DNA from: an uncultured Pseudokineococcus sp.
Lineage (GTDB): Bacteria; Actinomycetota; Actinomycetes; Actinomycetales; Quadrisphaeraceae
Assembly: GCF_947499845.1 (NCBI RefSeq)
Contig: NZ_CANMPM010000005.1
Location: forward strand, 124,001 to 188,000
Reading direction: 5' to 3'
DNA: 64,000 bases
In this document: one piece after another, positions 31,163-38,041 of the stretch
How the letters are laid out: each line of letters begins with the position of its first letter
Numbering within the stretch: position 1 is the first letter of the stretch
Made by a program: the position numbers and the translations under genes
The notes under the pieces: generated by a model
The model's input: only the letters and a program-made list of their open reading frames with translations
The model's database searches: none
Told to the model about the DNA's origin: nothing

Positions 31163-32044
31163 TCAGAGCGCGTGCGCGGCCGACCAGCCGCGCCACGCGT
31201 CCGCGTCGCCCTCGACGACGACGTCGTCGCCCCGCCGCCACAGCGCGAGCAGCAGGTCGACCGCCCGGCCCCGCACGACGACGTCCGCCGGGGCTGCCTC
31301 GCCGGTGACGTCCCCGCCGGCTCCGGCGCCCGTGCCGACGACGGTGCTGCCGTCGGCGTCCCACCGGACGAGCCACCGACCGCCGGAGCGGCCGTCGGGG
31401 GACGGGCCCTCGAGGACCGGGCCGTCGGGGACCGGGGGCCGGTCCACCTCCTCCACGAGGAGGTGGACCGGGGGCCGGTCCACCTCCTCCACGAGGAGGT
31501 GGACCGGCGCGGCCGGCGAGGCGGCGGCCGCCCGCGCGGCGACGCCCGGGTTGAGGGGCACGACGAGCAGGTGCTCGTCGACCCCGTCCCGCGCCACCGC
31601 GACCGGCGTCGACGGCGTCCGGCCGGCGGACAGCGCGACGTCCGCGGCGTGGACGGCCGTCTCGTGGAGCAGCCGGCGCCGCCAGAAGCCCGCGGTCGGC
31701 TCCGGGCCGAAGGTCCAGGCCGGGGCCTGCGGGTCGCTCGCGCGCAGGGCGCTGAGCACGTCGTCGGCGCTGTCCCGCAGCCAGGTGCGCGGGTCCGGCC
31801 CGGGCGCCGGGACGACGTCGCGCCAGCGCGCGCGGGTGGTCGTGCCCGAGCGGACCATCGCCGCGGCCCAGCGGTAGGTGCCGCCCACGTGCTCCAGCAG
31901 CGCCCCGACGTCCCAGCCGGGGCAGGCCGGGACGGGCGCCGCGAGGTCGACGTCCTCCGCCTCCACGAGCAGGGCGTCCACCTGCTCGGCCAGGGCCTCG
32001 AGGTGGTCCACGTCGAGGTGGTCCGGGTCGTCCGCCGCGCTCAC
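31163..32044 (-). CDS. Mycothiol-type maleylpyruvate isomerase-family protein
   Basis: DinB-like four-helix protein of the maleylpyruvate isomerase family; relatives use mycothiol as cofactor. 293 residues. The N-terminal domain (about 8-160) has the metal-binding pattern VPACPGWDVGALLEHVGGTYRW (His in LLEHVG), RRRLLHETAVHAADVALS (HxxxHxxD). The C-terminal MDMPI_C domain ends WLVRWDADGSTVV and DLLLALWRRGDDVVVEGD. It contains a 24-residue stretch in which the 12-residue unit VHLLVEEVDRPP occurs twice, encoded by duplicated palindromes. GTG 32044 lies 31 bases after the DUF1992 gene, so the two are probably one operon. Confidence 0.88.
   Translation of the reverse strand: MSAADDPDHLDVDHLEALAEQVDALLVEAEDVDLAAPVPACPGWDVGALLEHVGGTYRWAAAMVRSGTTTRARWRDVVPAPGPDPRTWLRDSADDVLSALRASDPQAPAWTFGPEPTAGFWRRRLLHETAVHAADVALSAGRTPSTPVAVARDGVDEHLLVVPLNPGVAARAAAASPAAPVHLLVEEVDRPPVHLLVEEVDRPPVPDGPVLEGPSPDGRSGGRWLVRWDADGSTVVGTGAGAGGDVTGEAAPADVVVRGRAVDLLLALWRRGDDVVVEGDADAWRGWSAAHAL
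31439..31507. repeat. Duplicated 33-bp perfect palindromes in coding sequence
   Basis: Two identical elements, 31439-31471 and 31475-31507, each have 15-base arms (CCGGTCCACCTCCTC and its complement) around CAC. The period is 36 bases, exactly 12 codons, so the isomerase reading frame stays open. Confidence 0.9.
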
Positions 32045-34905: not shown

Positions 34906-35316
34906 ATGCCGACGCCCCCCATGCCCGCCGACGTCGCCGCGCTCTTCGCCCGGCCGAACCCCGCCGTCATGGCGACGGTGGCCGCCGACGGGCGCCCGGT
35001 CAGCGTGGCCACCTGGTACCTCGTCGAGGACGACGGCCGTGTCCTCCTCGGCCTCGACGCCGGGCGCGCACGCCTGGAGCACCTGCGCCGCGACGGCCGC
35101 GTCTCCCTCACGGCTCTCGCCGAAGGCGACTGGTACACGCACGTGAGCGTCCAGGGCCGCGTCGTCGAGATCGTCGACGACGAGGGCCTCGCCGGCATCG
35201 ACCGGCTCTCGCGGCACTACACCGGCCGCGACTACCCGCAGCGGGACCGGCCGCGCGTCCTCGCGTGGGTCGAGGTCGACCGCTGGCACGGCTGGGGCGG
35301 CGCCGGGCAGGGCTGA
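34906..35316 (+). CDS. PPOX-class FMN/F420-binding protein
   Basis: Split-barrel flavin-binding protein of 136 residues, PPOX class; actinobacterial relatives often use coenzyme F420. Features: LFARPNPAVMATVAADGRPVSVATWYLVEDDGRVLLGLDAGRARLEHLRRDGRVSLTALAEGDWYTHVSVQGRVVEIVDDEGL, the complete PPOX barrel with the RLEHLRRDGRVSL motif. The C-terminal DYPQRDRPRVLAWVEVDRWHGWGG tail is typical of F420-type members. The start is ATG 34906. The substrate is unknown. It is divergent from the PIG-L gene. Confidence 0.85.
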   Translation: MPTPPMPADVAALFARPNPAVMATVAADGRPVSVATWYLVEDDGRVLLGLDAGRARLEHLRRDGRVSLTALAEGDWYTHVSVQGRVVEIVDDEGLAGIDRLSRHYTGRDYPQRDRPRVLAWVEVDRWHGWGGAGQG

Positions 35317-35433: not shown

Positions 35434-37059
35434 GTGGTCAGCATCGACGTGCCCGAGCCGCAGGTGGTCGTCGCCGCCGACGGCACCCGCATCGCCTCCT
35501 ACGTCTGGGAGCCGGAGGGCGGGGACGGCGACGCGCCCGTCGTCGTGGCCGTCCACGGCTTCGCCTCCAGCGCGGCGGCGAACTTCGCCCAGACGGGCTG
35601 GACGCGCGACCTGCCGCGCGCCGGCTTCCGCGTCATCGCGCTCGACCAGCGGGGGCACGGGGCCAGCGACACCCCGCACGACCCGGCGCGCTACGACCTC
35701 GACGTGCTCGTCGACGACGTCGTCGCCGTGCTCGACCACCACGGCGTGGACGCCGCCCACTACGTCGGGTACTCCCTCGGCGCGCGCGTCGGCTGGCGGG
35801 CGGCCCTCCGCGCTCCCGTGCGGGTGCTGTCCGCGGTGCTCGGCGGCGTCCCCGACGGCGAGCCGCTCGAGCGCTTCGACCTCGCGCAGGCCCGCGCCCA
35901 CGTCGAGGAGGGCGCCGAGGTCACCGACCGCATCACGGCCGCCTACCTGACGATGGCGGACTCGGTGGCGGGCAACGACGTCCGCGCGCTCATCGCCCTC
36001 GTGGAGGGGATGCGGGGCAGCGGGAGCCTGGACCCGGAGGACCCGCCGCACCAGCCGGTGCTCGTGGCGACCGGCAGCGAGGACGGCATCCTCGAGCGCT
36101 CCCGCCGGCTCGCCGCGGCGCTCCCGCAGGGCTCCTTCGTCGAGATCCCCGGGCGGCACCACTTCAACGCGCCCACCTCGCGGCACTTCCGGACCGCTGC
36201 CGTCGACTTCCTCACGGACGCGCCGGCCCCGGCGCCGCCGGCGGAGCCGGTGCCGCTCGAGCTCGCGCGGTCGTGGCTGCTCGTGCCCGCGCTCGGGGAC
36301 GTCGACGCGGCCGCGCGCTCCGGCTGCGACGCCCTGGTCCTGGACCTCGAGGACGCCGTCGACGGCACCCGCAAGGACGAGGCCCGGGACGCCGCCGTGG
36401 CCTGGCTGCGGCGAGGGGGCCGCGCGTGGGTGCGGGTCAACGGCCGCGCGAGCGAGCACTGGTCGCGCGACGTCGACGCCCTGCGCGGCCTGCCCGGGCT
36501 CGTCGGCGTCGTGCTCTCCAAGACCGAGCAGGGCACGCAGGTCACCGAGACGGCGGACCGCCTCGGCGGCGAGGTCCCCGTCGTCGCGCTCGTCGAGTCC
36601 GCGCTCGGCGTCGAGGCCGCCGTGGAGGTCGCCCGGGCGCGCGGCTGCGTCCGCCTCGCCTTCGGCAGCCAGGACTACCGGCTCGACACGGCGACCGCGG
36701 ACACCGAGGTGGCCATGGGCTACCCGCGCTCGCGGCTCGTCGTCGCCAGCCGCATCGGCGGGCTGCCGGCACCCGTCGACGGCCCGACGACGGGCGGCGG
36801 CCGGGCCGAGCTGCGGCGGGCCTGCGAGGCGGCGACGGCGCTCGGGCTCACCGGGAAGCTGTGCCTGGCGCCGGAGGACGCGGGCGTCGTCGCCGAGGCG
36901 CTGAGCCCCGCGCGCACGGACGTCGCCTGGGCGCGAGAGGTCCTCGCCGACTTCGCGGCCCGCGGCCGGGTGGTCCGCGACAGCAGCGACCTCCCGCGGG
37001 TCGGCCGCGCCGAGCGCCTCGACCGGCTCGCACGCGCCTACGGCGTCGAGCCGGGCTGA
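35434..37059 (+). CDS. Alpha/beta-hydrolase : CitE-like lyase fusion
   Basis: A 541-residue two-domain protein. Residues 15-262 are an alpha/beta hydrolase: HGFASS oxyanion loop (41-46), nucleophile GYSLG (Ser114), acid D217 and His242/243. A short Pro/Ala linker (263-275) leads to a CitE/HpcH-type TIM barrel (278-541): LLVPALGD, LVLDLEDAVDG (E306), RVNGR (R334), VALVESALG (E388) and AFGSQDY (D414). CitE-type enzymes cleave or hydrolyse malyl-CoA-like esters; the hydrolase could serve as a thioesterase. The substrate is unknown. The start is GTG 35434, weakly supported. The gene converges tightly (7 bases) on the LigD-type gene. Confidence 0.88.
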   Translation: MVSIDVPEPQVVVAADGTRIASYVWEPEGGDGDAPVVVAVHGFASSAAANFAQTGWTRDLPRAGFRVIALDQRGHGASDTPHDPARYDLDVLVDDVVAVLDHHGVDAAHYVGYSLGARVGWRAALRAPVRVLSAVLGGVPDGEPLERFDLAQARAHVEEGAEVTDRITAAYLTMADSVAGNDVRALIALVEGMRGSGSLDPEDPPHQPVLVATGSEDGILERSRRLAAALPQGSFVEIPGRHHFNAPTSRHFRTAAVDFLTDAPAPAPPAEPVPLELARSWLLVPALGDVDAAARSGCDALVLDLEDAVDGTRKDEARDAAVAWLRRGGRAWVRVNGRASEHWSRDVDALRGLPGLVGVVLSKTEQGTQVTETADRLGGEVPVVALVESALGVEAAVEVARARGCVRLAFGSQDYRLDTATADTEVAMGYPRSRLVVASRIGGLPAPVDGPTTGGGRAELRRACEAATALGLTGKLCLAPEDAGVVAEALSPARTDVAWAREVLADFAARGRVVRDSSDLPRVGRAERLDRLARAYGVEPG

Positions 37060-37066
37060 CGCGCCC

Positions 37067-38041
37067 TCACTCCTCCGACGCCCGGCGAGCACGGGCGCGA
37101 CGGCGCCCCTCGTGCATCGCGGCCGCCCGCGGCGGGGGGATGGTGCGCCCCTCGGCGACCAGCGTGGCGGGGACGACCTGCGGGTCGGGCAGGGCGGCCC
37201 GCCACGGGTCCGCCCCGGCGGCCCGCCCGGCGAGCAGCGCCGCGGCCTCGCGCAGCGACGGACGCCCGGGCGCCCAGGCGTCGAGGTCCTCCCAGCCCAG
37301 CGGCCAGGACACGGGCGTGCCGGGGCGCACCCGGGGGCTCCAGGCGCAGGCGAGCGTCCCGCCGCCCGCGCGGGTCGGGTCGAGGAAGACCCGGCCGCCG
37401 CGGTCGGCGAGGAGGTAGGCCGTGGTCGCCACCTCCGGGTCGAGGCGCTCCGCGCGCGCCGCCAGCGCCCGGGTGGCCGCGGCGGCGTCCTCGACGTCGA
37501 GGCCCCGCACCGGCACGACGACGTGGAGCCCCTTGGCCCCGCTGGTCTTGACGGCCGAGGCCAGGCCGGCGTCGTCGAGCGCCGCGCGCACGAGCCGGGC
37601 CGCGGCCACGACGGCGTCAGCCCCGGCGCCCTCGGGCGGGTCCAGGTCGAGGACGAGCCGGGACGCCCGGCCCTCGCCGTCGAGGACGGTGGGGTGCAGC
37701 TCGACGGCCCGCTGCCCGGCGAGCCACACGAGGGTCCGGACGTCCTCGACGAGCGGGTGCCGGACGCTCCGGTGCGAGGCCTCCGACCACACCTCCCGCA
37801 CCGCGACCCACGCCGGCGCCGAGGCGGGCAGGTTCTTCTGGACGAAGGGCCGCTGGCCCGGTCGGACCCGGACGACGGTCAGCGGGCGGCCCGCGAGCTC
37901 GGGCAGCAGGCGGTCGGCGGCCGCCTCGACGTGGTCGACGAGGTCGCGCTTGGTGGCGTCGGCGCCGTCGAAGAGCGCGTCGTCGAGGGAGGTGAGGGGG
38001 ACGCCGTGGCGCTCCTCGACGGGGCCGGCGCTGCGGGGCAC
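37067..38041 (-). CDS. Stand-alone LigD-type polymerase (PrimPol) domain
   Basis: Archaeo-eukaryotic primase-type polymerase of the bacterial NHEJ family, able in relatives to add ribonucleotides during double-strand-break repair. 324 residues. Motif I is LVLDLDPPEG (metal D132, D134), motif II VKTSGAKGLHVVVPV (S167, H173), and the third acidic residue lies in the FLDPTRAGGG region. The TRVRPGQRPFVQKN-like block is typical. Ligase and nuclease domains of LigD are absent. GTG 38041 fits the start of homology and lies before two palindromes shared with the divergent padR gene. Confidence 0.87.
   Translation of the reverse strand: MPRSAGPVEERHGVPLTSLDDALFDGADATKRDLVDHVEAAADRLLPELAGRPLTVVRVRPGQRPFVQKNLPASAPAWVAVREVWSEASHRSVRHPLVEDVRTLVWLAGQRAVELHPTVLDGEGRASRLVLDLDPPEGAGADAVVAAARLVRAALDDAGLASAVKTSGAKGLHVVVPVRGLDVEDAAAATRALAARAERLDPEVATTAYLLADRGGRVFLDPTRAGGGTLACAWSPRVRPGTPVSWPLGWEDLDAWAPGRPSLREAAALLAGRAAGADPWRAALPDPQVVPATLVAEGRTIPPPRAAAMHEGRRRARARRASEE

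Follow-up and report, generated by a model that had tools for sequence, protein, structure and literature searches.

The window analysed here, a stretch of 64,000 nucleotides from an uncultured Pseudokineococcus, carries on its forward strand a gene of 541 codons in which an alpha/beta hydrolase and a CitE-like lyase are encoded one after the other, without a single internal stop between 35434 and 37059. The gene, its parts and the gene that lies before it are as follows:

34909-35316 (+): upstream gene, outside the fusion, for a PNPOx_N (pyridoxamine-phosphate-oxidase-like) protein
35434-37059 (+): whole fusion gene, 541 amino acids, with a GTG start and a TGA stop in one open frame
35434-36219 (+): alpha/beta-hydrolase half, residues 1-262, with the triad Ser114-Asp217-His243 (Pfam PF00561/PF12697)
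36220-36258 (+): linker rich in Ala and Pro, residues 263-275 (from the alignment of five fused proteins)
36259-37056 (+): CitE-like (HpcH_HpaI) half, residues 276-541 (Pfam PF03328 and PDB alignments)

In Pfam searches, Abhydrolase_1 covers residues 35-139 of the protein (E 2.4e-25), Abhydrolase_6 residues 37-246 and HpcH_HpaI residues 291-480 (E 3.5e-18). The linker between the halves differs in both sequence and length among the five fused copies aligned. Residue 273 is encoded by an in-frame GTG that could in principle serve as the start of a free lyase; in another Pseudokineococcus genome, G004, this residue is Leu. A structure prediction for the fusion, made from an input of three sequences of which two are 98% and 88% identical to that of the window, gave a mean pLDDT of 46, too low for the model to be of use, and scans for repeats, promoters and terminators returned nothing usable.

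The genes around the fusion had been called unrelated to it in the initial annotation, and the present scan agrees: no obviously related gene was found among the six flanking genes scanned, one of which had no match. The PNPOx_N gene precedes the fusion on the same strand in the window and at loci L050 and L051, and at L049 it was recognised by its C-terminus only. On the other side, a gene for a stand-alone LigD primase-polymerase domain (37067-38041, reverse strand) ends 7 bases past the stop codon of the fusion.

Occurrence and single origin of the fusion

Four other genomes have the same uninterrupted frame, with 77-98% identity, and the joining of an alpha/beta hydrolase to a CitE-type lyase, as described in the initial annotation, is therefore true. 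Since the frame is intact in all five, neither chance nor a sequencing error affecting two separate proteins can account for it, and a frameshift or assembly artefact was rejected on the same ground. Among the 13 genomes of the window's family, the fusion is found in all four of Pseudokineococcus (G000, G004, G005 and G006; the copy of G005 ends at a contig end, at residue 538), and the remaining nine are without it: at E 1e-20, six of them have both halves as separate genes, one the lyase alone and two neither. A sample of 396 genomes of the order contains at least five carriers among the matches listed, namely the four of Pseudokineococcus plus G042, which belongs to another family in which 1 of 12 genomes has the fusion. 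In a sample of 396 genomes of the phylum, the window's genome is the only one with the fusion, other Pseudokineococcus being absent among the matches. The searches of order and phylum scored the best few candidates per genome, so distant relatives may have been fused independently elsewhere. Among the genomes sampled, the fusion is thus almost confined to one genus; the pairing is real and new, restricted to that genus, and made from families that are known. In the nine sampled genomes that have both genes unfused, these lie on different contigs (six genomes) or about 92, 100 and 309 kb apart (three genomes). A search of the open-licence full-text literature with few terms found neither a paper on such a fusion nor an assayed enzyme with the hydrolase-CitE-like architecture, which is weak evidence of absence.

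Two of the cases needed closer scrutiny. An apparent sixth fusion, in G317, matches over residues 5-528 and was rejected because it is a hydrolase only, the match continuing past a stop codon into sequence that has nothing to do with the fusion. Contamination of G042 was rejected because its fusion contig, of 5.7 kb, also has purK and an alpha/beta-hydrolase gene typical of its genus, which are 85-89% and 73-79% identical, respectively, to those of five genomes of the same genus and are both single in G042; the hydrolase neighbour, identified by its Pfam match, looks like a proline iminopeptidase. Besides the fusion, G042 retains the separate lyase that is usual in its genus.

In evolutionary terms, the fusion formed once. 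The five fused rows make up one clade in the tree of 23 hydrolases (support 100/98) and in that of 32 lyases (100/100), and G042 is the outermost fused row in both when these are rooted at the midpoint. The simplest reading of the presence of the fusion in the lineages of both G042 and Pseudokineococcus is a transfer between them, with old retention as the alternative. Purifying selection acts on both halves: over ten pairs of fused copies, dN/dS is 0.06-0.43 in the hydrolase half and 0.13-0.38 in the lyase half, compared with 0.35-1.63 for the 13 codons of the linker in nine pairs (undefined in one), and dS among the five fused genes lies between 0.08 and 0.51.

The stem of the fused clade measures 0.73 changes per column in the lyase and 0.26 in the hydrolase. 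Of the columns conserved to 90% or more among unfused proteins, all five fused rows have altered 12/127 in the lyase, counted over 25 of 27 unfused rows with the divergent L083 and L084 left out, and 5/108 in the hydrolase. For three rows (L056, L068 and L084) the gene caller may have placed the start too late. Among the altered lyase positions are Gly413 and Arg417, close to Asp414, which is a ligand of Mg. As Leu417 is present also in the solved lyase 9nzb, these alterations may equally well reflect another substrate or decay. In addition, the loop that follows the RSWLL motif is one to two residues shorter in all five fused rows than in all 25 readable unfused rows, two truncated rows being unreadable at this point.

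Active sites and relatives of the two halves

The N-terminal half scores 90.1 bits with PF00561 (cut-off 25.8), and both this score and its triad place it in the alpha/beta hydrolase superfamily. The initial annotation had listed Ser114, Asp217 and either His242 or His243 as catalytic residues; all are present, and the triad is kept in the five fused proteins. The doubt about the histidine is now settled, for Ser114-Asp217-His243 is invariant in 23/23 aligned hydrolases (5 fused and 18 unfused) and His242 is replaced by Asn in three of the 18 unfused ones, so that His243 is the catalytic residue. Models of narrower scope fit much less well. The PcaD 3-oxoadipate enol-lactonase (TIGR02427) gives 62.4 bits against an equivalog cut-off of 255.85, and among 25 of the 28 NCBIfam matches listed the half falls far below the cut-offs of enol-lactonase and esterase-like models and has no match to an acyl-CoA thioesterase model. 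Among solved structures, epoxide hydrolases and other hydrolases come closest to it in sequence. Stand-alone alpha/beta hydrolases from the same order (L055, L054 and L056) are 55-63% identical and share the triad but, unlike the protein of the window, are unfused. No shared neighbours were seen among five unfused hydrolase loci examined, and the plasmid collection yielded no relative of this half at E 1e-25. A parallel in architecture is that of PcaDC/PcaCD (NF051488 and NF051487), in which a related alpha/beta hydrolase is likewise fused to a pathway enzyme, although the partner there is a decarboxylase and here a CitE-like lyase; the fusion scores 66.5 against a cut-off of 390 with the former model and 43.9 against 430 with the latter.

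The C-terminal half scores 66.1 bits with PF03328 (curated cut-off 25), matching the CitE-like superfamily, and its best solved relatives are the CoA lyases 9nzb and 8khl (E about 1e-27). Aligned with PDB entries, it has the residues described for this superfamily (PMC3832036, PMC6689899), namely the Mg ligands Glu388 and Asp414, Arg334 and the D-x-E-D motif formed by Asp304, Glu306 and Asp307, all of which are invariant in 5/5 fused and 27/27 unfused rows. Three of them, Glu306, Arg334 and Glu388, had already been named in the initial annotation and are indeed present and kept in every fused protein; to that list we add Asp414 as the second Mg ligand, Asp304 and Asp307, and the lid residue Asp519. 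Catalytic loss was not seen in the homologous fusions, ten positions being kept in five of five. Counting along the PDB alignment, Arg334, Glu388 and Asp414 correspond to Arg64, Glu112 and Asp138 of Rv2498c from Mycobacterium tuberculosis, of which the first is reported to lie near the substrate hydroxyl and the other two to bind Mg (PMC6689899). Equivalents of the Arg and of the Mg ligands are conserved across the CitE-like superfamily, according to another report, in which Glu replaces the lid Asp in the subgroup of malyl-CoA thioesterases (PMC3832036). In the window's protein the lid residue is Asp519, as in lyases, and it is kept in 5/5 fused and 26/27 unfused rows, which sets the fused lyases apart from that subgroup. 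Taken together, the conserved residues suggest that both halves are apparently active.

Among NCBIfam models, the lyase half matches the citramalyl-CoA lyase RipC/Ccl (NF038242) best, at 78 bits, an enzyme of itaconate degradation with an equivalog cut-off of 375 bits; it also lies far below the cut-off of 443.4 of the CitE model, and malate synthase PF01274 is absent from the Pfam matches of the fusion. Rv2498c and RipC/Ccl have the Mg ligands, the catalytic Arg and the D-x-E-D motif in common with it, but not the N-terminal hydrolase that the window's protein carries. The lyase half represents a subfamily of its own among CitE-like lyases.

No neighbour is common to all 27 loci of unfused lyases among the 25 largest neighbour clusters, in which L058 and L065, which coincide with L080 and L081, were counted once; the neighbours that recur mostly follow lineage. 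Of the nine loci of family f6, seven have genes for a MaoC-type dehydratase and a MurB-like protein at 2-7 kb downstream of the lyase (Pfam on L063), with a FAS1-type dehydratase gene beside the MaoC-type one in at least six of those seven; the set is presumably a housekeeping block. An amidohydrolase is close to the lyase in 4/7 loci of family f14. Uricase is encoded near the lyase at three of the 27 loci (L066, L067 and L080), all of one genus, and at L080 (9649-14562) the CitE-like lyase forms part of a cluster for urate and allantoin degradation with uricase, OHCU decarboxylase and allantoinase. Glyoxylate is a possible product of urate breakdown.

Two plasmids of Rhodococcus opacus encode an unfused lyase (e.g. 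WP_160094463.1) that is 57-59% identical to the lyase half, in clusters (L094, 9184-15990; L097, 7220-13990) with the gene order SLC13 permease, PrpF-like protein, CoA ester lyase, CoA transferase and second CoA ester lyase. In comparison with a second CoA ester lyase of R. opacus, the subfamily of the window's lyase lacks four residues just before the lid Asp. The PrpF-like protein is closest to 4-oxalomesaconate tautomerase, below the cut-off, and the whole cluster may constitute a route for carboxylic-acid degradation, in keeping with a pathway of carboxylic-acid CoA esters. The R. opacus lyase is not fused, and none of the genes scanned next to the fusion encodes the permease, the PrpF-like protein or the CoA transferase. 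Small carboxylic-acid CoA esters would fit both the urate and the Rhodococcus settings. A further link, from an operon of Tsukamurella tyrosinosolvens in which two genes labelled alpha/beta hydrolase precede a 45% identical lyase, was rejected, for both match the esterase family PF00756 only, and no relation was seen between the nearer one and the hydrolase half of the fusion (best E 0.026).

What the joined protein may do

Whether the two halves travel together when unfused was evaluated in the 396 genomes of the order, taking as orthologues hydrolases at E 1e-60 (40 genomes) and lyases at E 1e-72 (47 genomes). With the five fusion genomes set aside, nine genomes have both, while 26 have just the hydrolase and 33 just the lyase. 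The nine compare with 3.8 expected when the window's own family is included (Fisher p 0.007, only a guide because the test treats related genomes), and six of them belong to that family; when it is left out, both are found in 3 genomes against 2.7 expected (p 0.74), so that there is no sign of coupling outside it.

In all four Pseudokineococcus genomes the fusion is the sole match to PF03328, and malate synthase PF01274 has no match in any of them (G000, G004, G005 and G006), whereas it is present in four of the five other genomes of the family that were searched. The four genomes are 95-98% complete, and a malate synthase gene could thus have been missed in one of them, less so in all four. 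PF01274 is absent also from G011 and from the three genomes tested in the family of G042 (G042, G111 and G085). A full-length isocitrate lyase was not found in the four Pseudokineococcus genomes, G004 having one weak partial match, and hence the glyoxylate shunt is not visible in them.

How, then, should a protein with two conserved active sites and so narrow a distribution be understood? The explanation that we favour, and to which we would give about an even chance, is that of a bifunctional polypeptide, made once, in which a CoA-ester lyase and a serine hydrolase are held in fixed ratio and proximity. Two genes of ordinary actinobacterial metabolism would have been joined on a single occasion into one chain, the C-terminal half of which would be a Mg-dependent lyase making or splitting 3-hydroxyacyl-CoA of malyl-CoA or citramalyl-CoA type, and the N-terminal half a serine hydrolase opening an ester, a lactone or a thioester by means of Ser114-Asp217-His243. 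What the fusion would bring is mainly the constant ratio and closeness of the two activities. It is somewhat unlikely, but conceivable, that the join arose from a chance deletion between adjacent genes for unrelated housekeeping activities and that drift has preserved it, the two activities being chemically unconnected. The lack of co-inheritance outside the window's family, the neighbours of the unfused genes, which vary between lineages, and the restriction of the fusion to one genus plus one further genome are in accord with such an accident. Yet the fusion has been retained in 4/4 genomes of the genus, and G042, from another family, has it besides its native separate lyase, both of which suggest that the joined form is useful. 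Less probable is that the lyase half serves as a scaffold, keeping the CitE trimer and fold with little catalysis and leaving the hydrolase as the working part. Its long stem, the shortened loop after RSWLL and the alteration of Gly413 and Arg417 by the Mg ligand in all five copies could be interpreted in this way; on the other hand, the Mg site and catalytic residues are kept in 5/5, dN/dS is as low in the lyase half as in the hydrolase half, and the occurrence of Leu417 in 9nzb makes the changes look non-inactivating.

The two halves may be linked chemically, although little besides the fusion itself speaks for this. In its general form, the lyase would condense acetyl-CoA or propionyl-CoA with glyoxylate or pyruvate and the hydrolase would then cleave the CoA thioester, as a malate synthase does or a malyl-CoA lyase together with a thioesterase. 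We regard this two-step reaction as distinctly improbable, even if several of the above results accord with it: PF01274 has no match in the four genomes of the genus and is present in most of the other family genomes searched, the fusion is the only PF03328 match in those four, a gene for uricase, from a pathway that can lead from urate to glyoxylate, lies near three unfused lyases, and the unfused orthologues occur together more often than expected with the own family included. Weak malate synthase activity is also ascribed to Rv2498c (PMC6689899). Against it stand the failure to find a full-length isocitrate lyase in the four genomes, the absence of malate synthase also from G042, G111, G085 and G011, the missing thioesterase model among 25 of the 28 NCBIfam matches listed and the lack of co-inheritance of the halves once the own family is left out. 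The initial annotation had proposed that the fused esterase might release the acid or supply the lyase with substrate; the fusion and the kept residues on which this idea was built have stood, but the coupling draws no support from the NCBIfam models (no thioesterase among 25 of the 28 matches), from inheritance outside the family or from the lid Asp. A still more specific version, to which we attach very little probability, is that of a replacement for malate synthase (or citramalate synthase) in a single chain, the hydrolase splitting the CoA ester and so making the condensation by the lyase one-way, in a genus where no malate synthase of known type was found. A lyase and a thioesterase likewise work as a pair in Rhodobacter sphaeroides, namely malyl-CoA lyase and malyl-CoA thioesterase, the latter of which is itself CitE-like and has the lid Glu (PMC3832036); in the fusion, by contrast, an alpha/beta hydrolase takes the part of the partner and the lid carries Asp.

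The interest of the protein lies in the neat joining, by nature, of two folds that are very common. Should the halves act one after the other, the fusion would name the partner, and hence the reaction, for each of the two orphan families, and might reveal a further way of building a step like that of malate synthase; if they do not, it provides a well-bounded case of gene fusion without a pathway link.

Elsewhere in the window, the protein encoded at 31163-32044 on the reverse strand has a tandem repeat of 12 residues, in which VHLLVEEVDRPP occurs twice.
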